From contig JAUWTJ010000015.1 in assembly GCA_030614785.1 (NCBI GenBank), positions 1-60,256 of the forward strand: a stretch of 60,256 nucleotides of DNA. The letters are read 5' to 3'. The position numbers were made by a program, and so were the translations under genes. Positions 2,684 through 60,256 of this stretch are shown in pieces. The notes beneath the pieces were generated by a model. It worked only from the letters and a program-made list of their open reading frames with translations, did not search any database and was not told where the DNA came from. Origin of the DNA: Alphaproteobacteria bacterium. GTDB taxonomy: Bacteria; Pseudomonadota; Alphaproteobacteria; M2410. How positions within the stretch are numbered: position 1 is the first letter of the stretch; each line of letters begins with the position of its first letter.

Positions 2684-3625
2684 CCTGTGGCGTGCGAATT
2701 GCTATTTTTCACACAAATGTGAGAGATTTCCCAGTCTTGTCATGCGCTATCATTTGACTACGATCACCGGCCATGCGTGATCTTGCCATCCTTTTCATCC
2801 ACCTTCTCGTAACGACTGCCCGCCTGTTCGGCCCTGGCGGCGGCCGTTCTGTCGTCGCTGAATCTCTGCCCGTGAAATATCAGCTTCTTGTTCTCAATCG
2901 CTCGCGGGCGCGAGCACCGAGCCTTCGACCAATGGACCGGGTTATTGTCGGGCTGTGTGCAATCCTGATGCGCCCTGCCCGCCTGTTGCGATCGGTCATT
3001 ATCCTGAAGCCATCCACGGTCCTCAGCTTCCATCGCGCACTGGTCGAACGGAAATACCGCCTGCTCTTCACCGCCAAAACGCATGGCAAGCCAGGCCCCA
3101 AATCACACTGGGTGATGGTTGTCATGGATCAGTTTACGCGCCGCATCATTGGCTTCGCCGTTCATAAGGGAGCGCCAGATGGGCCCGGTGTATGTCGTAT
3201 GTTCAACTGTATCATCAGTGGATCCGGGAGCCCACTATACTTGAGCTGCGACAATGACCCGCTCTTTCGTTACCGACAATGGGAAGCGAACCTCCGGATA
3301 CTCGAAGTGACAGAAGTGAAGACAGTCCCTTACGTTCCTCTGTCACACCCTTTTGTGGAACGACTGATTGGCACGATACGGAGAGAATATCTGGACAAGG
3401 TTCCTTTCTGGAGTGCCCGGGACCTGGAGAGAAAATTACTGCTCTATAAGGAATATTATAACAGAAGTCGTCCTCATCAGGGACGCAATGGCGCTTTACC
3501 CGACTCAGGCTGCAATAAAACGGATCGGAAGAACGCTCGTCTGGACGCCTTTCGGTGGAAGGCTCATTGTCACGGCCTTTATCAACTGCCTGAAGCCACT
3601 TGAGTAGCAATTCGCACCCCACAGG
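2684..3625 (+). mobile_element. IS element with 21-bp terminal inverted repeats (about 0.94 kb)
   Basis: The ends are 2684-2704 and 3605-3625, inverted copies differing at one position, each reading CCTGTGG(C/G)GTGCGAATTGC inward. The element encloses one integrase-core transposase frame. Just inside the left end is a dyad TCACA-CAAA-TGTGA (2709-2722) upstream of the transposase start. The flanks are a truncated MarR gene and a truncated PEP-CTERM gene, and no target-site duplication is visible. Confidence 0.8.
2773..3603 (+). CDS. Integrase-core (rve) transposase with internal deletion
   Basis: The 276-residue protein begins with the N-terminal region of a widespread IS481/IS3-like integrase family (FHRALVERKYRLLF) and ends with its catalytic core (HWVMVVMDQFTRRIIGF, SCDNDPLFRYRQW, PFVERLIGTIRREYLD, YYNRSRPHQG). 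Relatives I recall are about 360 residues. Here the text jumps in frame from THGKPGPKS directly to HWVMVV, losing about 85-100 residues that normally hold the helix-turn-helix linker and the first catalytic Asp. The second Asp and the Glu are visible. The enzyme is probably inactive unless complemented in trans. Family naming is from memory. Confidence 0.75.
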   Translation: MRDLAILFIHLLVTTARLFGPGGGRSVVAESLPVKYQLLVLNRSRARAPSLRPMDRVIVGLCAILMRPARLLRSVIILKPSTVLSFHRALVERKYRLLFTAKTHGKPGPKSHWVMVVMDQFTRRIIGFAVHKGAPDGPGVCRMFNCIISGSGSPLYLSCDNDPLFRYRQWEANLRILEVTEVKTVPYVPLSHPFVERLIGTIRREYLDKVPFWSARDLERKLLLYKEYYNRSRPHQGRNGALPDSGCNKTDRKNARLDAFRWKAHCHGLYQLPEAT

Positions 3626-3959
3626 AGGCGGACCGAGAGATTCTGCAACATTTGAGGCGTGGGGTCCCGATAAGGCTTTTGTCATCGCAATGGGGTTATT
3701 TGGGCACGTGGACGTCTGGGATTCAGACGCACTTCCCACGGGCATCAATGTCAATGACTTCTTAGCGAAAATGTACATCACGATCTTTGAAAGCGGATCC
3801 TCCTTTTCTGGTCCGTTGACGGAAATGCACCGTGTCGATGAACCGTATGTGTTGCCATCCGTATTGGCGGGCCTTTTATTGCTTGCGCTGTTTGGTGCTC
3901 GTAGACGCCGGGTACTCGGCTCGCAAGCGTCTACCCCAATCTCCTATGGGTATCCTTAG
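3626..3959 (+). pseudogene. PEP-CTERM-like protein, C-terminal fragment
   Basis: The open frame enters from the IS right end and closes with a tripartite sorting tail: EPYVLPS, then a hydrophobic helix (VLAGLLLLALFG), then ARRRR. This matches exosortase (PEP-CTERM/VPLPA-type) substrates, although the exact VPEP signature is replaced by DEPYVLP. The preceding residues (FGHVDVWDSD) look like the end of a secreted beta-rich domain. Signal peptide and start codon are missing, cut off by the IS junction at 3625. An intact PEP-CTERM gene lies at 58821-59426. Confidence 0.65.
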
Positions 3960-10587: not shown

Positions 10588-11061
10588 ATGCTTATCTTCC
10601 GCGCCCTGTTCTGGATCATCGCCGTGTCGCTTCTTCTTGCCGGGGGCAACGGGGCCTCTGGCTACTATGGTGACCGACCAGGCTCCGAATATGTCGACCG
10701 CGACAGCCCTGCCTATCACTCCGCCACCCGCGTTGTTGCCTCGGTCTCGCAGCTGAATGGCTGGTGCCTCTCGCACGAGACGGCCTGCGCCGCCGCCGGC
10801 ACCACCGGACAAATTGGTCTTGAGTTGATCGACAGATCGATGAAAGGGCTGGTGAGATGGGCGGCATCGAGCGAGGCTTCAACCGCAGAGCGACGGGTCG
10901 CAGACCAGGACCATAACGATGATCAGAACGATATGGCCCTTCAGGGCCAACGCACATCATGGGAGATGGCCGCGCCCGAAGACAACGTCGAAGCTCCGTT
11001 TTTTAACGGGCTCACAGATCTTCTGTACGGCGAAGACGAAGAGCTCGACGATATTGGTTGA
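10588..11061 (+). CDS. DUF5330-like small exported protein
   Basis: The 157 residues start with a hydrophobic segment (MLIFRALFWIIAVSLLLAGG) that would act as signal or anchor. A short Cys-containing region follows (NGWCLSHETACAAAGTTG), resembling the CxxxxxxC motif of DUF5330 proteins of alphaproteobacteria, and then an acidic, low-complexity tail. No enzymatic motif is seen. It lies between the tRNA and sufE. The family call is from pattern memory. Confidence 0.6.
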   Translation: MLIFRALFWIIAVSLLLAGGNGASGYYGDRPGSEYVDRDSPAYHSATRVVASVSQLNGWCLSHETACAAAGTTGQIGLELIDRSMKGLVRWAASSEASTAERRVADQDHNDDQNDMALQGQRTSWEMAAPEDNVEAPFFNGLTDLLYGEDEELDDIG

Positions 11062-11183
11062 GTGATCCTTGTGCCAATTCTTCCGGCTTGATCCGCTGGC
11101 CCGGGCGGCCCCTTGTCCTGGTCTTGCGCCAACGGCCGCGACGCGCTATCCCATCGTGTCGTTTCACAAGGCGCGGGCCCCGT

Positions 11184-11600
11184 ATGAGCATCGAACAGCT
11201 GATTGAAGATTTTGAATTCCTCGATGACTGGGAGGATCGCTACCGCTATGTCATCGAGCTGGGCAAGGACCTTGAACCCTTTCCAGATGAACTGCGCAGC
11301 GATACCACAAAGGTCAAGGGTTGTGTCAGTCAGGTCTGGCTGATCAGCCGCCGTCCCGCGGATGCGCCCGGCACACTCACCTTCATCGGTGACAGCGACG
11401 CTCATATCGTTCGGGGACTGATCGCCATATTGTTTCGGCTCTTTTCAGGAAAGACACCTCAGGACATTCTTGATGCCGATGCGAAAAAGGTATTCGAGCA
11501 ACTGGGCCTCGATGCGCACCTCAGTCCACAACGCTCCAACGGCTTTTATTCGATGGTTGAGCGTATTCGCCGGGACGCCAAAGCTGCCCTGCAAGATTGA
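11184..11600 (+). CDS. sufE: SufE-family sulfur acceptor
   Basis: The ATG at 11184 gives 138 residues, the usual SufE length; an upstream in-frame extension to 11058 lacks homology. Key features are IEDFEFLDDWEDRYRYVIELG, the KVKGCVSQVWL loop carrying the active cysteine, and the C-terminal helices ending in SNGFYSMVERIR. SufE takes persulfide from the cysteine desulfurase SufS for Fe-S cluster assembly. The rest of the suf operon is not in the window. It is convergent with the mucR-type gene, with two bases between stops. Confidence 0.93.
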   Translation: MSIEQLIEDFEFLDDWEDRYRYVIELGKDLEPFPDELRSDTTKVKGCVSQVWLISRRPADAPGTLTFIGDSDAHIVRGLIAILFRLFSGKTPQDILDADAKKVFEQLGLDAHLSPQRSNGFYSMVERIRRDAKAALQD

Positions 11601-46936: not shown

Positions 46937-47551
46937 ATGATGAAAGAGGCAAATTTCGAAGCCATGCACAATTCTCAAAGCGCACTCACCACAAAGCCTT
47001 TCTATTTTTTGCGGCACGGCGAAACTGACTGGAACAAAGAACGCAAGTGGCAGGGCTCACAGGACATTCCACTCAATGACACAGGCATTGCGCAGGCCAA
47101 AGCGGTCCGCCCGTTGCTTGACTCTCTAGGCATTAAAACTGTCTGCGTTAGCCCTTTGCAACGAGCAGTTAAAACTGCAGACTTGGCTGCAGGGCACCTG
47201 GCAGCTCCAGCTCATATTATTGAAGATTTGCGAGAAGTTGGTTTTGGTCCCTATGAAGGAAGCAATCATTACCTTAATCCATGGCATGATGGATGGAAGG
47301 AAGGCGCTCATATAGAGGGCGTTGAGGATTTTAACATCTTCATTGCGCGTGGCCTCGCCGCAATCAATCAGGCCCTCAGTTTTGATGGCCCGGTTCTGAT
47401 CGTCTCTCATGGCGGCATCTTTTGGTCTGTGAGGAAACACGCTCGACTGGATCCTGATCTGAGCGCGTGGAATTGTTCACTATTTGAGCTGAGACCACCA
47501 ACTGAACATCGACCCTTCTGGCTGCATGAAGTACTCAATCCTCAGGATTGA
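46937..47551 (+). CDS. Histidine phosphatase family protein
   Basis: The RHG signature FLRHGETDWN is near the N-terminus, and VSHGGIFWSV supplies the second His; SPLQRAVKTADLAAG and GPYEGSNHYLNPWHDGW follow phosphoglycerate-mutase-like order. About 204 residues from the ATG at 46937; an inner ATG at 46964 is an alternative. It is a cytosolic phosphatase of unknown substrate. Overlaps the end of the convergent patatin gene by 10 bases. Confidence 0.92.
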   Translation: MMKEANFEAMHNSQSALTTKPFYFLRHGETDWNKERKWQGSQDIPLNDTGIAQAKAVRPLLDSLGIKTVCVSPLQRAVKTADLAAGHLAAPAHIIEDLREVGFGPYEGSNHYLNPWHDGWKEGAHIEGVEDFNIFIARGLAAINQALSFDGPVLIVSHGGIFWSVRKHARLDPDLSAWNCSLFELRPPTEHRPFWLHEVLNPQD

Positions 47552-48465
47552 TCCGCCCGCGCCAGCAAAGCCTTGATTTCGGGAATTTTCACCATGATCG
47601 CCTCACGCCCGAGTGCGATGAGTTCGTCGGCCTTGTCGAATTCGATCTGGGTGATATGACCAACCTTCGGCTCTATATAGACGTCAGCGGGACAGATCTC
47701 TGCATGCCCGCGCGCTATCTCACGAAGGATCAAGGCCCCGGAGGTGAGCGCAACGCCGAGAAAACCCGGCTCCTTCGCCTCCCCTCGAAAGAACCTTGCG
47801 ACTGACTGGCTCAGATTGGCAAATGCAGCTCTCGCGCCCACCGTTTCGCCGCCTTTGCCCGGCGTAGCCGACTCATCGGGATGGCGCAACAAACCGGCTG
47901 CGGCGGCCTGACCTTCAAAGTCCCCGACAATATTGACGCCAATGACCAGATCCGCTCCGAGGTCCCGGCAGGTCGAAACGGGAACCGTGTTGAGAAGCCC
48001 GCCATCGACGAGGAGACGCTGGCCACTTCGCACCGGCGTAAAGACACCTGGAATGGAAATCGATGCGCGCAGCGCCTCGACAACGTCGCCTGTGTCGAAA
48101 ATCACCTGATCACCAGACACAAGATCAGCGGCAACTGCGGCAAAGGGCCTGTCGAAGTCCTCGATGCGGCAGTCGCCCAGATGTTCACGCAGCAACGCGA
48201 CAACCGGCTCGCCGGCGAGAAAACCGTTTTTGCCAATCTGGATATCTGCAAGGCGGATCATGCGGTGCCAGTTCATGCCGCGCGCGACTTTCTCCAGCGC
48301 CTCCATCTTGCCAGCCACATAACAGGCACCGACGATCGAGCCGATGGATGTCCCGGTAACAATATCCGGCCTGAAGCCATTCTCGGTCAGGACCTGGATG
48401 ATGCCAATATGAGCCCAGCCGAGGGCCGCGCCGCCACCAAGGGCCAACCCGATTTTTCGTGTCAT
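47542..48465 (-). CDS. Patatin-like phospholipase, RssA type (second)
   Basis: The 307 residues are paralogous to the gene at 1044-1970: oxyanion loop GLALGGGAALGWAHIGI, nucleophile elbow GTSIG (Ser40), and VDGGLLNTVPVS (Asp154). No signal peptide. It probably acts in the cytosol as a lipid acyl hydrolase. The two patatins share length and order of motifs, so one may be a transferred or duplicated form of the other. Confidence 0.93.
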   Translation of the reverse strand: MTRKIGLALGGGAALGWAHIGIIQVLTENGFRPDIVTGTSIGSIVGACYVAGKMEALEKVARGMNWHRMIRLADIQIGKNGFLAGEPVVALLREHLGDCRIEDFDRPFAAVAADLVSGDQVIFDTGDVVEALRASISIPGVFTPVRSGQRLLVDGGLLNTVPVSTCRDLGADLVIGVNIVGDFEGQAAAAGLLRHPDESATPGKGGETVGARAAFANLSQSVARFFRGEAKEPGFLGVALTSGALILREIARGHAEICPADVYIEPKVGHITQIEFDKADELIALGREAIMVKIPEIKALLARADQS

Positions 48466-48556: not shown

Positions 48557-48823
48557 TCAGTGCAGGACAAATTCCTCAGCCGTACCAACCTCGCTGGCAG
48601 AAATCAATTCCATAGCGCCGACTGTTACCGAGTGAAGACGGCCATCCAGATTGTCTTCCCAAAATTCCAGAAATTTCATGAGGCGAGGATACTTTGGCGA
48701 CAGGTCAAGATTTTGCCAGACGAATGTTTGAATAAGGGAGGGATGATCCGGCATATGATACAGAATCTCCGCTGTCGCAAGTCGATACCCTTTGAGTTGG
48801 CGAGTAAATTGCTCATCTGTCAT
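48557..48823 (-). CDS. Usg-family protein
   Basis: The 88-residue protein follows the Usg pattern: QLKGYRLATAEILYHMPDHP, LIQTFVWQNLDLSPKYPRL and FWEDNLDGRLHSVTV. Usg is a small alphaproteobacterial family of unknown function. GGAGTATAAACC precedes the ATG. It is the last chromosomal gene before the prophage block. Confidence 0.88.
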   Translation of the reverse strand: MTDEQFTRQLKGYRLATAEILYHMPDHPSLIQTFVWQNLDLSPKYPRLMKFLEFWEDNLDGRLHSVTVGAMELISASEVGTAEEFVLH

Positions 48824-48931
48824 GGTTTATACTCCTTACACCGCCAAAGACTAGATCAGACAGGTTAACAGTTTTTTTACCCCTTTAACACTTTCCTCTT
48901 GTTACAGATTGTCTTTTTGGTGTTAGCACTC

Positions 48932-49589: not shown

Positions 49590-50045
49590 TCAGATTTTCA
49601 ATGCATAAATTGTGTAGTCAGCGGAGCCTTCTACCGCTCCCGACGTTGGCCGAATCTCAATCGTCAATGTTGTAGTGACTTCGATTTCGCCCAGTTTGAC
49701 GCCATCCACGTTCTCCCAAACCCGGTCAGTGGACAATGGGAGCCAAGACCCTAATCCAGCATTAAGAGAATTCGGTGGATTTGTCAGTCCAGATGCATAA
49801 GTTGCTCGAATTTCATAACCGTCCCCTATCGTCACTTCAGGAACTGAAATCCAGTTCTGGTAGTATGTCCAACTGGCCGAGGATGTTGTGACATTCCTGT
49901 ATACTTTCCCGTCGCGGTCGAACTTCAGCCCTGAGTACGGATCGGTGGTATTGGTATGAGATGCGGAACCACCGGCAAGAATGACTGACAAGCCGCCAAC
50001 CGCATTTGCGATAACTGAAGTCGAACCATGAAGTGCGGGAATCAT
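49590..50045 (-). CDS. Phage fibre-associated protein (151 aa)
   Basis: The ATG at 50045 overlaps the stop of the fibre gene (ATGA). The 151 residues begin with a short apolar piece (VIANAVGGLSVILAGG) and continue as beta-rich sequence with no recognisable domain (YRNVTTSSASWTYYQNWISV). It is probably a fibre accessory or chaperone, from position alone. Confidence 0.55.
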   Translation of the reverse strand: MIPALHGSTSVIANAVGGLSVILAGGSASHTNTTDPYSGLKFDRDGKVYRNVTTSSASWTYYQNWISVPEVTIGDGYEIRATYASGLTNPPNSLNAGLGSWLPLSTDRVWENVDGVKLGEIEVTTTLTIEIRPTSGAVEGSADYTIYALKI

Positions 50046-51277
50046 ACTGCAACATCCCCATAGGCGACCCAGGTATCTGAAGCGACTTTGACAATACACA
50101 TCACTGCATATTGCTGCGAGGTCTTGAGACCATTCGGGGCCCGCAACAATACCGCCGCACCCGGCGCAATCGTCACTTGCCCGGCACCGGACTGAAAAAC
50201 CTGAATCACCGTCCCGATTGAAAAGTTAACGGCAGAATTTGGTGGCACTGTCCATATCACTGCAGCGGCTGATGTGCTTTCCTGCATGGTGTTCGCATCA
50301 GCCAGGGCGAAAGTCTTCGCAGATGTCTGAGCGACCACCTTTATGCCAAAATCGTCCAGACCAATCTTCCTGTGGGCAGAGGCTGAATCGTCCCATATCA
50401 GCAATTCATCTGCTGTATGATCAAGGTCGTTAGCGGAAATGGTAATAAGTTGATTAACCGGTAAAGTAGTGTTTCCAGCAATTTTGAGGGCCCCAGTTAC
50501 AATATCCAACCCTCCACTGCCAATTATCACACGATCAACCAAAGCTGTCACGAGAGTGAGGGCGTCACCATTATTATTGTATTTGACACTACCGCGAATT
50601 TCCGCAGCGGTATCACCAAAATTGAGGGACGCAAGGCCCGCATTCCCACCGACGATGCCGACATAGGAATTGACAGCCCCTTCAAACAGCGCGAAAGTCG
50701 CGCCATTCGGCGACCATACGTGTCCGTTCGTTGCGGACTTAACGTGTAATTTGCAATCAGGGTTTGCCGTGCCAACTCCGACTCTGTCGTTTGTTGAGTC
50801 GACATACAATGTGTCTACATCAACCGTCAAATCCATCAAAGTCAATCCAGATGTAATACTTGGCATTTGAAACTGTGTGCCGTCGTAAACAAGTTGAACC
50901 AGCCCTCCTGCCACAATATCCCCGGAGACCAATGCAGCTCCGTTCTTCTGGACTGCTTTGGGACCTAAAGCATTTACATTGACTGTCGATACACCGGTAT
51001 TTGCGTTTGCCGCAAAAAAGTGAAAGGCTTGGCCGGTTGCATAGGCAGTGATGGTCGGAGCGGGGGCAATGGCATAGACATCGGCCTCACCGGTGTCAGC
51101 CGCGTAGGCTGATATTCCTCCAAGACTTTCATCCCACCACGACTTAATTGCAGACATCATTCCGCGGGCTGAATTATTTACTGAGGATGGTGCCATGCCT
51201 TCCTGCCAATTGATGCCTGCATCCGCTATATCGTTGGATGCAGGGGTCGTTGACCAGTCTTTGATATTATTTGTCAT
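50042..51277 (-). CDS. Phage tail fibre protein
   Basis: The 411 residues start with a conserved attachment-type head (SVNNSARGMMSAIKSWWDES), common in tail fibre proteins, then beta-rich repeats including the collagen-like/trimeric fibre stretches DSTNDRVGVGTANPDCKLHV and NLDHTADELLIWDDSASAHR-type segments. It would form the receptor-binding trimer of the tail. AAGGAAAAG lies before the ATG. Upstream (51278-51425) is a short gap of unclear content. Confidence 0.8.
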   Translation of the reverse strand: MTNNIKDWSTTPASNDIADAGINWQEGMAPSSVNNSARGMMSAIKSWWDESLGGISAYAADTGEADVYAIAPAPTITAYATGQAFHFFAANANTGVSTVNVNALGPKAVQKNGAALVSGDIVAGGLVQLVYDGTQFQMPSITSGLTLMDLTVDVDTLYVDSTNDRVGVGTANPDCKLHVKSATNGHVWSPNGATFALFEGAVNSYVGIVGGNAGLASLNFGDTAAEIRGSVKYNNNGDALTLVTALVDRVIIGSGGLDIVTGALKIAGNTTLPVNQLITISANDLDHTADELLIWDDSASAHRKIGLDDFGIKVVAQTSAKTFALADANTMQESTSAAAVIWTVPPNSAVNFSIGTVIQVFQSGAGQVTIAPGAAVLLRAPNGLKTSQQYAVMCIVKVASDTWVAYGDVAV

Positions 51278-51425: not shown

Positions 51426-52295
51426 CTAGCCGATCGATGAGAGTACGCCGAGGGCGGATGAGAATATGTCAAAAGGTCCCATTGTATTTTTGACCGTTGT
51501 AGTCTGAGTACCATTGCGGGTATTGCCCTGACCTCCCATGCCATTCAATGCCCGGGCGTAGAGGAGTAACTTCTTCCATGGATCATCCTGCTCAAACGTA
51601 TGACGTTCCTGAAGATCCGCCAACTGACTTTTAGCCAACCCTTCATGCTGTGCTCCCACAGACTGCAAGGCTCCAGCATCCAGGTAGGGGACCATTGCAA
51701 GTCGCTCTGCCGAGCCTACGGCATTCGTACGGCGGGAGTAATCGTCCTCCCACGCACTTTGCAGTTTCGAAATCGCGTCGATCTGGCGGGCGCGCTCCTG
51801 CTGATAGTTTTGAGCGTAGATGTCGTTCGCAAGATTTCCGAGCTGTGACTGCAGCAATTGTTGATGAGCCCCTGAGCCTGCCCGACCTCTCAATCCAGCA
51901 GTACCGTTGATCTTGTCCGTAACCTTGTCAGCCGCCTTATCGAACATCGTGTCCAACCACGGATTGCCGACTAGGTTGTCCCCTTGAGCTGTACCGGTCA
52001 GATAGTTGGCAAATGGACTGGTGCTGTAGTTCCCGATCATCATGTTCCGGACTTGCTCGTTTGCCGTGTCGATGAGCGAAGACCCGTTCCGTGCGCGGGT
52101 TTCTATCATTCCCAGAGCGTCTGCTGTCTGGTTGGAGAAGGGAACCGATGTGGAAAATGGGAAATAGGAGTCATTCTGCCCTTGCTGATAAAGTGAGCGG
52201 GCTTGGCCCATAATGTCGTTCAGATATGGCGCCGCCGGTTTCCAGGGGCCCTGTTCGGACTTCTCGACCACTTTTGTTTTTGATCCGCTGCTCAT
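51426..52295 (-). CDS. Phage internal/tail protein (289 aa)
   Basis: The ATG at 52295 (GGAGAAGAGATT upstream) gives 289 residues: a head segment (KPAAPYLNDIMGQARSLYQQ) and glutamine-rich helices with no known domain (HQQLLQSQLGNLANDIYAQN). Similar proteins of marine podoviruses carry this N-terminal pattern and are annotated as tail or internal virion proteins. Its last residues abut the fibre gap. Function is from position only. Confidence 0.6.
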   Translation of the reverse strand: MSSGSKTKVVEKSEQGPWKPAAPYLNDIMGQARSLYQQGQNDSYFPFSTSVPFSNQTADALGMIETRARNGSSLIDTANEQVRNMMIGNYSTSPFANYLTGTAQGDNLVGNPWLDTMFDKAADKVTDKINGTAGLRGRAGSGAHQQLLQSQLGNLANDIYAQNYQQERARQIDAISKLQSAWEDDYSRRTNAVGSAERLAMVPYLDAGALQSVGAQHEGLAKSQLADLQERHTFEQDDPWKKLLLYARALNGMGGQGNTRNGTQTTTVKNTMGPFDIFSSALGVLSSIG

Positions 52296-52705
52296 AATCT
52301 CTTCTCCAGTAAAACATGTGACATCTTGTAGTCGGGCAGTTCTCTGGCCCATCCGCGCCGGGCGAGGACCTGGGCGATACCGCAACCCTGCCCTCTAGCC
52401 CATTCTTCAAACGAGGTCAGGACATGTTTCCAGTCCTTGCGGCCTTCACCGGTCAGGATGATGACGTCGGCGACTTTCATGCCGGTCGGGTAGACCAGCA
52501 ACTGACTGACACCGACGGCCCGAGCCTCGGACTTTTCCGTGTTCCAGACGATCCAGAGTTGCTGATCGCCTGACTCGATTTCGGCAAGGATCGCATCAGG
52601 CGTGAAGCGACCATTTGATCTGCCGGTTGAGTCCCTAATCCAGGCATCAATGAGGGGCCACGTCTGACAGGCGGCCTCCGGCGGTATTTGGACGAGTTTC
52701 ATCAT
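52292..52705 (-). CDS. Phage GNAT-like protein (137 aa)
   Basis: The stop overlaps the next gene start (ATGA). The 137 residues (IPPEAACQTWPLIDAWIRDS, then ADVIILTGEGRKDWKHVLTS and FEEWARGQGCGIAQVLARRG) resemble the small acetyltransferase-like proteins often encoded in podovirus tail regions; the acetyl-CoA loop is not clear. It may modify or be a structural part of the tail. Confidence 0.55.
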   Translation of the reverse strand: MMKLVQIPPEAACQTWPLIDAWIRDSTGRSNGRFTPDAILAEIESGDQQLWIVWNTEKSEARAVGVSQLLVYPTGMKVADVIILTGEGRKDWKHVLTSFEEWARGQGCGIAQVLARRGWARELPDYKMSHVLLEKRL

Positions 52706-52947: not shown

Positions 52948-53258
52948 TATCCACCTACTGTTGCAAAGTTGAAGATGCGGTCGATTTGGGAGTTATTTGA
53001 ATGCTGGATGGTCGCCGCGCCGCTCGCGCAGGTGATCCAGATATTGGATTGTTCCGCCGCCGCGTTGGCGGTCTTAGGCATCAGAAGAACAACGCTGTCG
53101 GGGCCAATATAAGGTCGCGTGATTGTCGTCGATGACTGACTGGCCGTCAGGGTCACTTCTCCGACGCTGTTAATCTGCCCAAGGAGAAGCTGATTTATTA
53201 CGAAGGCCAATTCTCGCGATGTCGCGCCTTCCGGTTTCAATCTGGGTCTTCGGGTCAT
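52947..53258 (-). CDS. Small phage structural protein (103 aa)
   Basis: A basic start (MTRRPRLKPEGATSRELAF) is followed by a beta-rich segment (GPDSVVLLMPKTANAAAEQS, then IWITCASGAATIQHSNNSQI). Its start overlaps the stop of the 481-aa gene by four bases and its stop abuts the start of the next. Unknown function; likely a neck or spike protein. Confidence 0.6.
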   Translation of the reverse strand: MTRRPRLKPEGATSRELAFVINQLLLGQINSVGEVTLTASQSSTTITRPYIGPDSVVLLMPKTANAAAEQSNIWITCASGAATIQHSNNSQIDRIFNFATVGG

Positions 53259-54700
53259 CGGGCTCCGTCCTCCACTGCAAGGAAGTCAACGCCCTGGGCG
53301 TGGGTCCAGGCGGCGCCAGCCGGGATCCTGAGGCGGGCGCGCTGAAACCGCCCTGATGAGCGCACCGGGCAACGCCCGGAAGGGGTCATGGCGACTTCGT
53401 CCGTATAGCTCGGGTTGGCGGAGAGGATTTCGCGGCGGCCAAGGGAGATCAAGGCGGTATCTGTATCAACGATGGGTCTGATTTCGCTGACAAACGCTCT
53501 TTGCCCCGGCAGCAGCTCGGCTTCGCGAGTCTCCAGGATGGCCTCAAGGGGCAGGCCTGTGAGCAGCGCCAACTTGTCATCAAGACCGAAAATACCGAGC
53601 GCCAATGCACCGTCGGTCCACAGGCGGGAATCGAGCGAGATACCCAAAAGATCGAGGTCCGCTGACATGGCGTCCAGCCCTTCCAGGGTGTAGCCCGGCG
53701 CCAGCACCGGAAAGATGAGACGTACATCCATATCGGCCTGGGACCACCCGCCCGTCGCCCAGTTGTACATGATGAACCGGTCGGGCTCCCCGTCAACGGA
53801 CTGACTGCTTGCATAGGACCAGATCACGATCTTGTTGATCGGGTCGGCGATGCCGGTCATGCGCGATAGATAGGTTTCATCAGCGTTGGCAAAGAAGGTC
53901 TTGTCGATCTTGTGTGCACCGATCGGTGTGCTGCGACCCCCGTCAAATTGATAAAATCCGTCATGCGCAAGATAGAAGGCGGTCCGTCCCACCTGAACCA
54001 GAGATCCGGGCGCTCTCAGACCACGACCCTTTTCCACGACATCGAATTGAAAAACGAATTCATCACCTGTTGCCACCATGGAGACAATTGCGTGTTCAAG
54101 GAAGATGAAACCCTGCTCACCGCCGATGATTCCCTGGACCCAGCCGCCCTCCGGGAAGTTCTGAAAGTCGGATTGATCGGTGCCGACGGTCCAGCTTTCA
54201 GGATCGCCAAACCCTGACCAATGGATGCCGTTCCTTTGGGTGGACAGGTTGCCCAACACTACAAAATCTCGCACCACCGCCATGTAGCGCGCCTGGGGAG
54301 GCGTCCCGCCGAGGTCGACAAATGGACTAGTCAGGGACAAATCGTATTTTTGCGGTACGTCGGAATAATTGGAGGCAATGATGAGACTGCCAAACTGGGC
54401 GAACCTCCATTTTTCATCGCCGGTCGTCGCATAGGCGCCGACGGTCCTTGTGATATCCTGCCAGGCGGTGTCTGCCAGCCTGTAGAGACCTGTCTGCGTC
54501 CCGGCAAAATTGACAACTGCGCCATCGCCGGTCTGGGCCGAGGTGCCACCTTTTGCCGACGAGGCCAACGCATCACTGCTGGTTTGGGCCGAGCCGACCG
54601 GACGGTACGAGGTCGCCGCCGGAAAGACGTTGTTGATATAAGGCGTTCCGGGATTGTTGAAATCTGCCTGGTCCGGGAGCCACTCACCGAAAGGGATCAT
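53255..54700 (-). CDS. Phage neck/tail beta-propeller-like protein (481 aa, gp10 position)
   Basis: The 481 residues are beta-rich with repeated W/Y-G motifs (GDEKWRFAQFGSLIIASNYS, NLSTQRNGIHWSGFGDPESW, AFYLAHDGFYQFDGGRSTPI). Size and order after the gp4-like adaptor match the packaged-DNA stabilisation protein gp10 of P22-like phages, though no direct sequence match can be claimed. Starts 4 bases before the stop of the preceding gene. Confidence 0.7.
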   Translation of the reverse strand: MIPFGEWLPDQADFNNPGTPYINNVFPAATSYRPVGSAQTSSDALASSAKGGTSAQTGDGAVVNFAGTQTGLYRLADTAWQDITRTVGAYATTGDEKWRFAQFGSLIIASNYSDVPQKYDLSLTSPFVDLGGTPPQARYMAVVRDFVVLGNLSTQRNGIHWSGFGDPESWTVGTDQSDFQNFPEGGWVQGIIGGEQGFIFLEHAIVSMVATGDEFVFQFDVVEKGRGLRAPGSLVQVGRTAFYLAHDGFYQFDGGRSTPIGAHKIDKTFFANADETYLSRMTGIADPINKIVIWSYASSQSVDGEPDRFIMYNWATGGWSQADMDVRLIFPVLAPGYTLEGLDAMSADLDLLGISLDSRLWTDGALALGIFGLDDKLALLTGLPLEAILETREAELLPGQRAFVSEIRPIVDTDTALISLGRREILSANPSYTDEVAMTPSGRCPVRSSGRFQRARLRIPAGAAWTHAQGVDFLAVEDGAR

Positions 54701-55347
54701 GGGGTGCCTCCCTTGACCTTGATGGACCAGGTCGTTCCGGATGATTTGGTCTTTTCATCCTGTCGGGTGAGAGCCATGGCCGCGCTGGCATAGCGAATGA
54801 GATATTCGTCCGCGGCCGGGCGGTTCCTTGTGTAGATTGCGGCCTCCACGAGAGCCGCAAAGAGATATATATCCGGCGCGTTCTGGAGCAGCGAGTTGGT
54901 ATCTGTATCAAGCGATAGCACAGAAAATTTGGCGAAGTAATTCAGCTGGACAGCGTTGGATGTATCGGGGACCGGGCTCAGGATGAGGTCGTTGCCCTCG
55001 ATCGTTGCCCGCACCGGTGTGCCGGTGGAAAGCCCTGCATCCATGCGCCAGAACAGTTCGGGCGCCAGCAGCTCGATGACCTGCGCCGGGTCCGACAGAA
55101 ACACAGTTCGGCGGGCCTCGAGGAAATCTGTCGGCAGGGTCGCGCGCCCTGAAGTAATTGTCAGATCGACCTCGGTCTCCATGGTGCGCAGCCGCACCGG
55201 CTGCAGCATCATCGGGCCCTGTGCCGAGCCGTAGTGAATACGCGTCTCTGCAAAGCTGACAAAATCCGGAATTCGGCTTGTCAGATCGGACCGGTCGAGC
55301 CAGTCCGCAATCGCGTTTTTCAATTCACCATAGTTGGTAATCGCCAT
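54697..55347 (-). CDS. Phage head-tail adaptor protein (P22 gp4-like)
   Basis: The ATG at 55347 gives 216 residues, mainly helical: YGELKNAIADWLDRSDLTSR, IPDFVSFAETRIHYG, then DNAPDIYLFAALVEAAIYTR-like helices with NRPAADEYLIRYASAAMAL. These match the podovirus tail accessory/adaptor family that sits on the portal. A longer in-frame extension to 55593 lacks homology. Weak ribosome site. Confidence 0.75.
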   Translation of the reverse strand: MAITNYGELKNAIADWLDRSDLTSRIPDFVSFAETRIHYGSAQGPMMLQPVRLRTMETEVDLTITSGRATLPTDFLEARRTVFLSDPAQVIELLAPELFWRMDAGLSTGTPVRATIEGNDLILSPVPDTSNAVQLNYFAKFSVLSLDTDTNSLLQNAPDIYLFAALVEAAIYTRNRPAADEYLIRYASAAMALTRQDEKTKSSGTTWSIKVKGGTP

Positions 55348-55501
55348 GACTTCGTCCGCTCTGTGATCACCCGGACGCCGTAAAACGTCGGGTGTGTTTA
55401 AATCAGTGACTGGAGGAGAAGTCAGGTTTTCGGGTGGGGGATAAGTCGAGGTGATTTTTTCTGGTGCTTTACTGAACGCCTGAAGTCTATTCAATGGTCG
55501 C

Positions 55502-55801
55502 CTAGAGTTCACCAGACCAGGTTCTAAACAGCGCGTTGTCCGGATCGTTAGCCCAGTCCTTCCAGGCCTTTGAATCATTGAACCAGCCTTCACGAAACGC
55601 CTTGCGGACTACAAACTCGGGGATCACCGCAGCGTGGCGAAATTCCTTGCCTGGTTCCAGTTCTGACAGGCGCTTTGCTTCCTTCAGGATTGGCTCTACG
55701 TTATCAACCTCTTCAAGAATTAGCGCTTCAGGGCGCTCGGCGTCTGCATGGATGATGGTGATGCCGTTTGCTCGCAAATCAAATATACCGCGTTTGGTCA
55801 T
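55502..55801 (-). CDS. Small phage protein (99 aa)
   Basis: The 99 residues (MTKRGIFDLRANGITIIHAD; KEFRHAAVIPEFVVRKAFRE; DWANDPDNALFRTWSGEL) match a short protein often found between coat and adaptor genes of such phages. Function unknown. A 154-base gap follows before the adaptor gene. Confidence 0.7.
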   Translation of the reverse strand: MTKRGIFDLRANGITIIHADAERPEALILEEVDNVEPILKEAKRLSELEPGKEFRHAAVIPEFVVRKAFREGWFNDSKAWKDWANDPDNALFRTWSGEL

Positions 55802-56125: not shown

Positions 56126-57067
56126 TTACGCCACATCAAGATCGGCGATGACACCATGTGCCTTCTCATTCTTGACGCACAGGGCGTATTCAGCGACAAC
56201 GTATTTGCGCTCTGAATCGCCTGTCCGCGCGAGATCCTTGACTTGCGGTGGACGCAGAAAGGCGATTTCGGCATATTCCGGGTCGACCACGAGAGCGGTG
56301 CGTTCGCGCTGGAAGCGGTTCGGCATCACCTTGATTTCGCCAAAGTCAGAAGCATAAAGATGGGCTGCCGCCTGGATCTTGTCGTCAGCGATTGCCTGGC
56401 GCGCCTGAGAGCGCCCTGTGAAGCCGGAGACAACACCCTTGTTGAAAGGACCCACAGAGAGGAAGTTCGGGGACGCCCCTTCTGTGTAGCAGCTCTGGAT
56501 CACGCCTTTCAGCATGGCCTCGGTAAAGGGCCGCGCGGTGCCATCAGTTGCAGCATCCGTTGCTGCTGCTGCATTGGCGCCGGTCGCACCGCGGTCAACG
56601 TTTGTCGCCAGGAAGCTCTCGATGGAGCGTGTACGCCGCGCTGTGCCGGTGGCACCGGCGTTATAGCCCTGGTTTCCGACGATCACGGCCTCAATGTCGC
56701 GCTTGAGCTCTTTCAGGCGTTTTGCCACCTGATAGCCCATTTCGCTTGAGCGACCGGCCTTCTTGACTTTCTCCTGGGTGGAGGAGACCACCACATCACG
56801 GCGGGAGATCTGACAATAGTTTTTCTCGCGTGTGGTCGGCGTCGATGCCGTGCCATCCACAATATCGCCTTCCAGAACGGCGTTGTTTGCATCGGCGGCA
56901 GCCAGCGCATCGGTTTGCCACTCGTAGAGAATGCCCTTGCCATCGGTTGACCCGATCGCGTTGGAAAACGGGGTTTCTTCCGGTGACAGGCTTTTTATAA
57001 CCTCCGAGAGATTTTCGCGATTACCCACCGCATCGTAGGTGAGAAACGCATTGGTTTGTACTGTCAT
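56126..57067 (-). CDS. Major capsid protein, SU10/DUF5309 type
   Basis: The 313 residues begin with the family opening (LSEVIKSLSPEETPFSNAIG) and include KNYCQISRRDVVVSSTQEKV, ELKRDIEAVIVGNQG (E-loop/spine helix region) and RFQRERTALVVDPEYAEIAF at the A-domain/C-terminus. This is the DUF5309 or SU10 capsid fold. AAGGAA lies nine bases before the ATG. A 12-bp palindrome TTCGATATCGAA (57101-57112) lies in the leader. Confidence 0.9.
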   Translation of the reverse strand: MTVQTNAFLTYDAVGNRENLSEVIKSLSPEETPFSNAIGSTDGKGILYEWQTDALAAADANNAVLEGDIVDGTASTPTTREKNYCQISRRDVVVSSTQEKVKKAGRSSEMGYQVAKRLKELKRDIEAVIVGNQGYNAGATGTARRTRSIESFLATNVDRGATGANAAAATDAATDGTARPFTEAMLKGVIQSCYTEGASPNFLSVGPFNKGVVSGFTGRSQARQAIADDKIQAAAHLYASDFGEIKVMPNRFQRERTALVVDPEYAEIAFLRPPQVKDLARTGDSERKYVVAEYALCVKNEKAHGVIADLDVA

Positions 57068-57190: not shown

Positions 57191-58159
57191 TCAGAGCATG
57201 AGCTCGATCACACGGGCTGCGTCCTCGACGTGACCCGTCTTTTTGAGTTTGGTCATAGCCTGGCGATAACCCGCTTTGGGGTCTTCGCGCCTCGCATGTC
57301 CCGGCGTCATCACCGGCCGCGCGCGCTGCTGGTCTCTCGCGCGCCTCGCAGCTTTGACCTGGCCTTGTTCAAGTTGATCGTATTTCATGGCCTTGTGGAG
57401 AATGGCGATCTCTGTGGCGCCGGCATCGGCAAACCGCTCATCGCCAAATCCTTGCACCTTTCCATAGGCCCTGATCTCGTCCCTGAGCTGATCGCCACCT
57501 TCAGGATCCGTTAGTTCGGGGATCAATTTGGCAAGTTCAGCGCTCTCGGTTTCAAGCACACGACCTCTGCGGAATTCTGTCAGTGTATTGGCATAACCCT
57601 CGGCCTGCTGCAGCGCGGCGCTGCGCGCCTGAAGGTCAGCAAAACGCGCCGGGTTAGTCATCGCGAGCGCCTGGAGATCCTGCGGTGAACGCAGGTCGGC
57701 AAAGTCACCCAGAAGCTGGCGTTGCAAGGAGGGGATAAGGGAATTGATCTCGGCATTGGCGGTTTCAAAGGCAGTGTCTATTTCGCTGCGGCGCTGCGTG
57801 ATTTCGACTGTGCGGCTTTCAACCTCGCCAGCCTTCGTCCATGCTTCAGTGAGTTCGGACAGAGGGACCGTCGTCTCCTTGCCGTCAATTTCAACCGCGA
57901 CCAGTGGGTCGTCATCAACCGCCACCAGTGGATCGTCAGGGGCCGCGTCCTCCGTCGGACCAGTGTCGCCTTTGTCTGACGGGTCGAAATCGTTGACAGT
58001 GTCTTCCTCGCGCTCATAAACACCAGCTCCGAGGATCTCATCGATCTTCATGGCTGCCTGTTCAACGGAACCCTCAGTCGGGTTATCAAAATCCTCATCA
58101 AGCAATGCCGCTTCGCCTTCATTAGGCTCAAGGTCGGAAAAATTGGTAAAGTCGTTCAT
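57191..58159 (-). CDS. Phage scaffolding protein
   Basis: The 322 residues are acidic at the start (LEPNEGEAALLDEDFDN), then contain a duplicated DPLVAV stretch, long helices (RRSEIDTAFETANAEINSLI) and a basic C-terminus (RAMRSRDQ-like RRARDQQRARPVMTPGHARR) that fits capsid binding. Position immediately upstream of the capsid gene and composition support scaffold. No protease domain seen. Confidence 0.8.
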   Translation of the reverse strand: MNDFTNFSDLEPNEGEAALLDEDFDNPTEGSVEQAAMKIDEILGAGVYEREEDTVNDFDPSDKGDTGPTEDAAPDDPLVAVDDDPLVAVEIDGKETTVPLSELTEAWTKAGEVESRTVEITQRRSEIDTAFETANAEINSLIPSLQRQLLGDFADLRSPQDLQALAMTNPARFADLQARSAALQQAEGYANTLTEFRRGRVLETESAELAKLIPELTDPEGGDQLRDEIRAYGKVQGFGDERFADAGATEIAILHKAMKYDQLEQGQVKAARRARDQQRARPVMTPGHARREDPKAGYRQAMTKLKKTGHVEDAARVIELML

Positions 58160-58493: not shown

Positions 58494-58660
58494 GCCCTGT
58501 CCTTTTCGTTTCAAATTGTTGCTGAAGCGAGTATCGGTCAGGGCAAGGGTCCGGGGAGAGGTTGGACGAGATTTTTTCGGGGAAGCGATGCCGACAGGTA
58601 ACCGGATAACACAGCCAATCCGGAGATGTCCGGACCAATTCAGCCAAATCATGTTTTAAG

Positions 58661-58677
58661 TGTCAGGATTCTTTACA
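58661..58677 (+). promoter_or_regulatory. TGTCA-N7-T(G/T)ACA motif, copy 1 (candidate activator site)
   Basis: TGTCAGGATTCTTTACA lies 50 bases before the -24/-12-like element of the PEP-CTERM gene. The same 17-base word with a perfect dyad, TGTCAGGTTTCTTGACA, is found at 59520-59536. The spacing suits an enhancer-binding activator of a sigma54 promoter. Confidence 0.5.
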
Positions 58678-58727
58678 ATTGGATTATGACAGTCTCACAA
58701 CATGTTGTTTTTGTTGATATTTTTATA

Positions 58728-58743
58728 TGGCATGGAACTTGTA
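58728..58743 (+). promoter_or_regulatory. Sigma54-like -24/-12 element of PEP-CTERM gene
   Basis: TGGCATGGAACTTGTA matches the RpoN consensus TGGCACG-N4-TTGCA except for two positions. It lies about 65 bases upstream of the start codon, with a ribosome site GAGGAGATAAAGTA directly before the ATG. PEP-CTERM genes in other bacteria are RpoN/PrsR-controlled. Confidence 0.45.
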
Positions 58744-58820
58744 TATTATTGCGATAACACGGCACCTTTGTATCAGCGAAAAATGGGGATTTTTCCAGAG
58801 GCGCCAGAGGAGATAAAGTA

Positions 58821-59426
58821 ATGGTTGGAATAAAGAGTTTCAAAGTCACGGTTGGCGCGGCACTTCTCGCCTTGGGGCTGGGTGCTACGTTTACGGGTTC
58901 GGCGTCGGCGGCACTTGTCGCTTGCACCGGCTCTGAGGTTTTTACAATTGAAGGTGCAGGTTTTTCAAGCTGTATGGTTGATACAGCGTATGCCGAAGGA
59001 AACGAAGTGGCATCGGTTAACCTGGTTTTCGGTGCGGGCTGGACTTTGGTCGCCAAGTCCGATGCTGCTGGTTCAGGCTTGACAGCAACACTTGGTACGA
59101 GCGGCACATTTGCAATGCTGCTCAGTCTTTTTGATCCTACTGATGAAATTGCCCTGGTTTTCAAAACCGGCTCCGGACAAAACAACCCTTCGGATGCGAT
59201 ATTCGGGCTGTGGACCGTTGGGGATCTCAACGCTGCACTCACTGGCGCGGCGACGGATTTGGATGGTACATACGATCTGTCTTCTTGGGGGCAAAATGCG
59301 CTGTCTCACATGTCGGCTTTCAAGCGCGAGGGCGAACGAAGAGTTCCCGAACCCGGACCACTTGGTCTTCTGGGAATTGGTATGGTCGCGCTTTACATTG
59401 CGCGCCGGAGGCACCTTCTGAGATAA
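58821..59426 (+). CDS. PEP-CTERM sorting domain protein (phage-borne)
   Basis: The 201-residue precursor has a signal peptide (VTVGAALLALGLGATFTGSA, cleavage near ASA) and a mature domain of beta-rich sequence with two cysteines (VACTGSEVFTIEGAGFSSCM). It ends with the exosortase sorting signal VPEPGPLGLLGIGMVALYIA-RRR, cleaved and anchored at the cell surface by EpsH/XrtA-type exosortases. The mature domain has no recognised family. It is transcribed against the phage late genes and has its own promoter and terminator. Confidence 0.95.
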   Translation: MVGIKSFKVTVGAALLALGLGATFTGSASAALVACTGSEVFTIEGAGFSSCMVDTAYAEGNEVASVNLVFGAGWTLVAKSDAAGSGLTATLGTSGTFAMLLSLFDPTDEIALVFKTGSGQNNPSDAIFGLWTVGDLNAALTGAATDLDGTYDLSSWGQNALSHMSAFKREGERRVPEPGPLGLLGIGMVALYIARRRHLLR

Positions 59427-59454
59427 TCAGGAGAGAGTTTACGACAAAAAACAG

Positions 59455-59486
59455 ACCGGAGCAGTCCCCACTGCTCCGGTTTTTTT
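59455..59486 (+). terminator. Rho-independent terminator of PEP-CTERM gene
   Basis: An 11-bp perfect stem (ACCGGAGCAGT/ACTGCTCCGGT) with a CCCC loop is followed by seven T. It lies 30 bases after the stop codon. Confidence 0.95.
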
Positions 59487-59519
59487 GTATTTCACGTACG
59501 GCCTTCAGTATACGTAAGG

Positions 59520-59536
59520 TGTCAGGTTTCTTGACA
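59520..59536 (+). promoter_or_regulatory. TGTCA-N7-T(G/T)ACA motif, copy 2 (perfect dyad)
   Basis: TGTCAGGTTTCTTGACA repeats the motif at 58661-58677 with perfect half-sites. It precedes the second sigma54-like element by about 107 bases, a usual distance for an upstream activating sequence. Confidence 0.5.
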
Positions 59537-59642
59537 GTCCGGGCATCCGAGATTTTCACCACTCTTGAAAATAGTTTAAGTATCTGGCGCAATTCATTGA
59601 TTTTCCTTATAACAAGCAAATATGCCTCCAAAGCCTCAAAAC

Positions 59643-59658
59643 TGGCCCGCGACTTGCT
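59643..59658 (+). promoter_or_regulatory. Sigma54-like -24/-12 element of 29-aa ORF
   Basis: TGGCCCGCGACTTGCT matches TGGCACG-N4-TTGC(A/T) with one substitution. About 40 bases downstream lies a small open frame with a ribosome site (GAGGCGTGGG). Confidence 0.5.
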
Positions 59659-59696
59659 TGTTATTTGACAAGAAATAATTATGAGGCGTGGGTCGT

Positions 59697-59786
59697 ATGT
59701 TTTATTTGATCGAAGATGAATCCATCCGGTTTTCGGCAGGGCTTTATATACTCACGATGCTGATCGGCTTTGTGTGCATCCTTTAG
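59697..59786 (+). CDS. Possible 29-residue membrane peptide
   Basis: The ATG at 59697 opens a 29-codon frame, MFYLIEDESIRFSAGLYILT followed by MLIGFVCIL, with a predicted single hydrophobic helix in its second half. GAGG lies about 10 bases upstream and a sigma54-like promoter about 40 bases further. The stop directly abuts the stop of the portal gene, as expected of a gene inserted into a tight space. Coding status needs expression evidence. Confidence 0.4.
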   Translation: MFYLIEDESIRFSAGLYILTMLIGFVCIL

Positions 59787-60256
59787 TTACCGGTTAGTGA
59801 TTCCGGTCACATTTGCCTTTTCGCGTTTTAGTACCATATCCAGACTGGCTGTTTCGCGCTTCAACATCATGTCCTGAGCGGCTTCCTCGCGTTTCAATGT
59901 CATCTCATTTTCAAGCTTCATTTGATCGACCCTGAACTTGTGCTGCAATTCCAGCTCCTTGAGCTGTCGATCCTGTTCAAATTTGATTGCATCCTCCTGC
60001 ATCTTCTGTGCGAGCTCAGCTTGTTTGAGGGATGCCTGGTGTTGCATGAGAGCGGCCTGCTGCGCGGCGAGACGGTCCGCATCGCTCTGCCAGGGGGAAG
60101 ACGACGCGGCTTTCGGACCATCTGATACCTGCGGCGCGGCTGGCAGTGTGAAGAAGCGCTCAACGCCCTTGAAGCCCATGGCGCCGACAATAATCTCGGC
60201 GGTTTCCATCATATTGGCCGGGGTCGCAAAGCCCTGTTCAAAAGCCATTTTTTGCA
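59787..60256 (-). CDS. Phage portal protein, C-terminal part (cut by window edge)
   Basis: The frame is open through the right edge; the ATG at 60248 may not be the start. Residues read NMMETAEIIVGAMGFKGVER, then FFTLPAAP, then a glutamine/lysine-rich coiled-coil (QHQASLKQAELAQKMQEDAI) typical of podovirus portal C-termini. The portal forms the dodecameric DNA gate of the head. Its stop abuts the small plus-strand ORF. Confidence 0.6.
   Translation of the reverse strand, partial: QKMAFEQGFATPANMMETAEIIVGAMGFKGVERFFTLPAAPQVSDGPKAASSSPWQSDADRLAAQQAALMQHQASLKQAELAQKMQEDAIKFEQDRQLKELELQHKFRVDQMKLENEMTLKREEAAQDMMLKRETASLDMVLKREKANVTGITNR

Follow-up and report, generated by a model that had tools for sequence, protein, structure and literature searches.

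A short plus-strand cassette encoding a PEP-CTERM surface protein among the morphogenesis genes of a phage element raises the question of whether a phage can carry an exosortase substrate as cargo, and whether the phage or its host would decide when such a gene is expressed. In this study, we analyzed the 60,256-nt window containing this locus, which is the entire contig C106 of a 3.86-Mb genome assembled in 148 contigs (G000). The explanation that we favor from the sequence, and consider reasonably probable, is that a remnant of an SU10-like phage carries a two-unit lysogen cassette wired to the PrsK/PrsR-sigma54 exosortase regulon of the host.

The cassette (58653-59786) runs antisense to all phage genes of the element and occupies the gap between the portal and head genes, bounded by the portal stop (59787) and the start of a small gene (58493), with two plus-strand units inside (Table 1). 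The major capsid, scaffold, adaptor and portal proteins were recognized in its flanks, in agreement with a preliminary description of this DNA that had placed a plus-strand cassette in the portal-scaffold interval. That description had also proposed a PEP-CTERM protein followed by a perfect terminator and a second unit with a 29-residue membrane peptide; the former was confirmed by family models and a 13-pair stem, the latter by a homologue in a related genome. The protein of unit 1 scored over the curated cut-off of PF07589 (22.1 bits, cut-off 20.7) and over that of TIGR02595 (21.2 bits, cut-off 16). The features expected of exosortase substrates, namely a PEP motif, a TM segment and a basic C-terminal end, are all present, the VPEP-TM-RRR tail comprising residues 175-197 (59343-59411), and a signal-peptide-like segment was seen by eye at the N-terminus. 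Unit 1 is a PEP-CTERM protein and a predicted exosortase substrate. A PDB sequence search returned no useful match, and the AlphaFold model of the PEP-CTERM protein (pLDDT 47) was left unused. Elsewhere in the window, a transposase-like ORF (2773-3959) adjoins a truncated PEP-CTERM-like C-terminus (3600-3959).

Table 1. Features of the cassette, of the surrounding phage remnant and of its bacterial flank, in window coordinates.
Feature	Position	Strand	Evidence or remark
Portal protein, C-terminal part	59787..60256	-	rest on contig C32
Unit 2: 29-aa membrane peptide MFYLIEDESIRFSAGLYILTMLIGFVCIL	59697..59786	+	ORF; homologue in G001
Sigma54 -24/-12 site, unit 2 TGGCCCGCGACTTGCT	59643..59658	+	106 nt past motif 1; -24/-12 complete
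PEP-CTERM box motif 1, unit 2 TGTCAGGTTTCTTGACA	59520..59536	+	host matrix
Intrinsic terminator of unit 1	59453..59482	+	13-pair stem, T run
Unit 1: PEP-CTERM protein, 201 aa	58821..59426	+	PF07589, TIGR02595
Sigma54 -24/-12-like site, unit 1 TGGCATGGAACTTGTA	58728..58743	+	50 nt past motif 1
PEP-CTERM box motif 1, unit 1 (presumed PrsR site) TGTCAGGATTCTTTACA	58661..58677	+	strict box, host matrix
Small conserved phage gene by portal, 97 aa	58200..58493	-	58% identity G001, 47% G002
Scaffold protein	57191..58159	-	phrog_3927, 2e-27
Major capsid protein, SU10 type	56126..57067	-	PF17236, 3e-94
SU10-type adaptor	54697..55593	-	PF24175
Virion structural protein	53255..54700	-	phrog_3287
DNA ejection protein	51426..52385	-	phrog_4287
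Tail protein or tail fibre	50042..51277	-	phrog_8780 and phrog_16053
usg-like gene, same order in G001; considered the bacterial right flank of the remnant	48557..48826	-	synteny
Patatin-like gene of the bacterial flank, same order in G001	47542..48465	-	PF01734, synteny

Each cassette unit has a PEP-CTERM-box promoter, composed of a 17-nt presumed PrsR site (motif 1) and a sigma54 -24/-12 site. The sigma54-like sites proposed earlier were both found at their positions, but they are only the sigma54 halves of these promoters, and the presumed PrsR boxes upstream had been missed. The strict form of motif 1 has eight exact matches in 3.86 Mb, compared with about 0.1 expected by chance (estimate), and all eight lie upstream of PEP-CTERM genes, one of them being unit 1. 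A motif-1 matrix trained on nine host sites only, with the cassette sites left out, recovered both cassette sites when 342 kb of strand were scanned; the score of the weaker cassette site was equalled or exceeded at ten positions, a number equal to that of the eight host PEP-CTERM promoter sites in the scanned loci plus the two cassette sites. Motif 1, TGTCRGRATTCTTTACA, emerged as the element accompanying the sigma54 sites when the upstream regions of host PEP-CTERM genes were compared, and it is also present upstream of both cassette units. The spacers between motif 1 and the sigma54 site measure 50 nt (four genes), 61-62 nt (five), 73 nt (one) and 106 nt (unit 2), steps that would correspond roughly to one helical turn or its multiples. 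The spacer of unit 1 falls within the published range of 32-92 nt (PMC1569441), whereas that of unit 2 lies outside it and yet is equal in the related genome G001. The -12 element of unit 1 reads GT and not GC; this deviation and the long spacer of unit 2 speak against a lysogen cassette under this control. Another box with a sigma54 promoter occurs in the first 360 bases of a different contig of the same genome (L090, G000:C6), before a signal-peptide-like ORF that is truncated by the contig end and is probably one more regulon member.

The search for a host exosortase and PrsR, as advised in the preliminary description, was positive for both. XrtA of the window genome matched TIGR03109 with 266 bits (cut-off 208) and is accompanied by a polysaccharide locus, PrsR scored 643 bits (cut-off 502.6), and about 15 PEP-CTERM genes are present besides unit 1. 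PrsR above the cut-off was also found in G002, and it was not found in G001 (87% complete) or G003 (83% complete). The box in G001 is intact, and the missing PrsR there counts against the lysogen cassette; this site could be a relic, or the PrsR gene of G001 could have remained unassembled. The same pair of elements was described for PEP-CTERM genes of Proteobacteria under the names motif 1 and motif 2, with PrsR as the proposed binder (Haft et al., 2006; PMC1569441). The cassette resembles this PEP-CTERM/EpsH (XrtA) system in its PEP-CTERM tail, its single-gene unit, its motif 1 with a sigma54 motif 2, and the presence of PrsR and XrtA in the genome; it differs in that the gene lies among phage morphogenesis genes and that the product of a second box unit, with its 106-nt spacer, is no PEP-CTERM protein but a 29-aa peptide. 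A further parallel is pepA of Aquincola tertiaricarbonis, an RpoN-dependent PEP-CTERM gene with a mapped -24/-12 promoter and a predicted upstream enhancer that is needed for flocs (PMC9850573). The cassette shares with pepA the gene type, the -24/-12 promoter and the upstream enhancer (predicted), but pepA is presented as floc-formation machinery and not as phage cargo.

Minus-strand phage genes occupy the stretch between the contig end and about 49.25 kb, and the SU10 capsid, portal and adaptor families (PF17236, PF23899 and PF24175) were all over the cut-off. Contig C32 shares an exact 127-bp overlap with C106 that occurs in no other contig and restores the portal frame; it holds the remaining portal (PF23899, 645 bits), beyond which lie a terminase frame with an in-frame TGA and then bacterial-looking genes. 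The terminase aligned too poorly with distant phages for the disruption to be sized, and no att repeat of at least 10 bp was found between both remnant ends. Because genes for integration, replication and lysis were not recognized in the element (C106 together with the C32 end; no integrase), the phage segment reads as an incomplete SU10-like podovirus morphogenesis remnant of ~14.8 kb and not as an intact prophage; the absence of these genes and the stop in the terminase frame also count against the lysogen cassette. The podovirus-like prophage proposed earlier is therefore upheld in its SU10-like podovirus genes and reduced in its extent to this remnant.

Related phages and genomes showed the same locus in other states. 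In four related sequenced phages, portal, small gene(s), scaffold and capsid share a strand, and no antisense cassette lies at this point. The SU10-like podophages phiM5 of Sinorhizobium (MF074189) and isolate ctjtQ328 (MW202879) have the gene order portal, small gene, scaffold and capsid in common with the window element, with capsids 45-50% identical, whereas they lack an antisense cassette in the gap after the portal, and the window element has no recognized replication and lysis modules. In related viral contigs, different opposite-strand ORFs separate the small gene from the scaffold (L036:2973-3917, ParB-like by eye; L041:4159-5680), so the portal-scaffold interval looks like an insertion hotspot. 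Among bacterial relatives, the MAG M3011 (G001, identical to L168), which belongs to the same family as the window genome and to a different genus, has a remnant at the same chromosomal site, with tail fibre, small genes, usg-like gene and patatin collinear. This shared site fits a single old integration that was passed on vertically as well as separate integrations into a common attachment site; a flank for an empty chromosomal site was not found in about 1.25 of the 2.4 Mb of G003. In M3011, the capsid is fused in frame to the tail fibre (L168:4095-5897), giving a 600-aa ORF with everything between lost. In G002, which belongs to the same family, the portal and small gene nearly touch. In a G002 locus with the same portal family (L183, G002:C104), a Fic-like/HTH gene pair separates terminase and portal, and an insert of 2.9 kb precedes the scaffold.

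We scanned IMG/VR for the box followed by a sigma54 site and obtained ten stretches, including four distinct ones with TGGCAC and then TTG (L273, L123, L270/L274 and L272) whose promoters look real. The loose form of the pattern was expected by chance two or three times in IMG/VR (estimate), in line with four poor matches; L268, L269, L271 and L150/L154 were treated as chance, as was L158, the lone match of an earlier viral scan, with an unsuitable -24/-12 spacing. The siphophage-like 98-kb viral contig L273 contains a 224-aa PEP-CTERM gene (10750-11424, minus strand) with a complete box and sigma54 promoter, immediately upstream of a capsid gene, after which connector and tail genes follow on the same strand. 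The GC content of this gene is 56%, against 63% for the locus, and the ORFs of a related Brevundimonas phage that correspond to its neighbors enclose no gene. The preliminary description had suggested looking for other phages with PEP-CTERM genes, and this unrelated contig with the same promoter type is such a case; it provides the strongest support for the view that PEP-CTERM genes with a box promoter would travel on phages. In the contigs of L123, L270/L274 and L272, which carry terminase or lysis genes, the box and sigma54 site precede genes other than PEP-CTERM genes. Searches of sequenced phages by tblastn with PEP-CTERM proteins or tails, which have little power for a 24-aa motif, returned no match, nor did blastn of the cassette against phages. 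No paper linking PEP-CTERM proteins to phage cargo was found in the open-access literature searched, a scope that excludes most subscription papers.

The main alternative is that host regulon genes landed in an old cryptic prophage after its death, in which case the PrsR/sigma54 wiring would be ordinary host regulation and the cassette would never have been phage-borne. The remnant state, the interrupted terminase and the capsid-tail fusion in G001 all suit a dead prophage; however, portal and capsid have open frames in three genera, with 61-71% identity compared with about 50% in the flanking patatin, which speaks against long neutral decay. The same chromosomal site in two genera is likewise in its favor, as is the confinement of unit 1 to the window genome: unit 1 is missing from G001 and G002 at the matching locus, which weighs against the lysogen cassette, and the closest relative of its protein in the searched genomes, which occurs in G002, shares 36% identity. 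Yet related viral contigs likewise show what looks like an insertion hotspot in this interval, and L273 is a phage contig with a like gene and promoter. Furthermore, the same gene and flanks at a chromosomal locus without phage genes, a case raised in the preliminary description, were not found. We regard this alternative as possible but rather doubtful. Given the remnant state, with unit 1 missing and unit 2 present in the sister locus, the PEP-CTERM unit may have come with the phage or may have been inserted after the death of the prophage.

It could also be argued that only unit 1 is functional and that the ORF of unit 2, whose end directly abuts the portal stop codon, is a chance reading frame, as it is very short and has no match in family libraries. 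We consider this very improbable. In G001, the interval between portal and small gene contains, on the opposite strand, a box that is followed after a 106-nt spacer by TGGCCCGGAACTTGCT and then by a 29-aa homologue of the unit 2 peptide, of the same length, in the same place by the portal stop and with 11 of 29 residues identical. The score of this alignment was reached in none of 100,000 permutations, and seven of the 11 common residues are encoded by different codons. On the strength of this peptide, its spacing and the permutation and codon results, unit 2 can very probably be regarded as a genuine gene that is conserved; its peptide pattern had no match in viral contigs, while the control was positive in both known loci. 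Lastly, an assembly chimera joining phage and host pieces, which the 148 contigs and the contig end cutting the portal might suggest, was rejected in view of the unique C32/C106 overlap that restores the portal frame and of the same unit 2 arrangement in the independently assembled G001, and a single contig carries the cassette with both phage flanks.

If the SU10-like remnant indeed carries a lysogen cassette wired to the host regulon, the host PrsK/PrsR, and not a phage programme, would turn it on with the other box-controlled PEP-CTERM genes of the host. The host XrtA would then cut the surface protein of unit 1 and hand it to the envelope or exopolysaccharide, the unit 2 peptide would sit in the inner membrane, and the cassette would change the envelope or matrix when the host PEP-CTERM set is on. 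The cassette does possess promoters of its own, as previously stated, but most likely under host control because they are of the host PrsR/sigma54 type. Its designation as a moron holds for the opposite strand, the promoters and the terminator, all matched in the sequence, and for the lack of such a cassette in relatives, although the carrier is not a functional phage. Like phage morons and lysogenic conversion genes, the cassette has opposite orientation, its own promoter and terminator, and is extra relative to related phages; in contrast to them, its promoters are of the kind found in a host two-component/sigma54 regulon, it encodes a predicted exosortase substrate, and its carrier is a remnant. 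It may perhaps be a phage-borne moron altering the surface or aggregation of the lysogen; superinfection exclusion is a possible role at the level of a guess, and adhesion and biofilm roles are likewise guesses.

More broadly, the viral contigs raise the evenly balanced possibility that unrelated phages repeatedly adopted the host PEP-CTERM-box (PrsR and sigma54) promoter, and that phage genes in lysogens or in infected cells would thereby be switched with the exopolysaccharide/floc two-component system of the host; the genes concerned would be an exosortase-sorted surface protein, the 29-aa peptide and the non-PEP genes of L123, L270/L274 and L272. If true, phages would plug genes into the exosortase/biofilm regulon, coupling viral cargo to the aggregation state of the host, and an exosortase substrate would join the known kinds of phage cargo genes. 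The pattern TGTCNGNATTCTTTAC-N(30-110)-TGGC-N7-TTG offers a specific DNA signature by which such phages could be found, and the locus also provides a testable small peptide. As to the individual box genes, that of L123 is a 220-aa ORF with a terminase-small-subunit-like ORF next downstream, that of L270 is a weakly Csx16-like ORF, and that of L272 is a 268-aa ORF behind several box copies.
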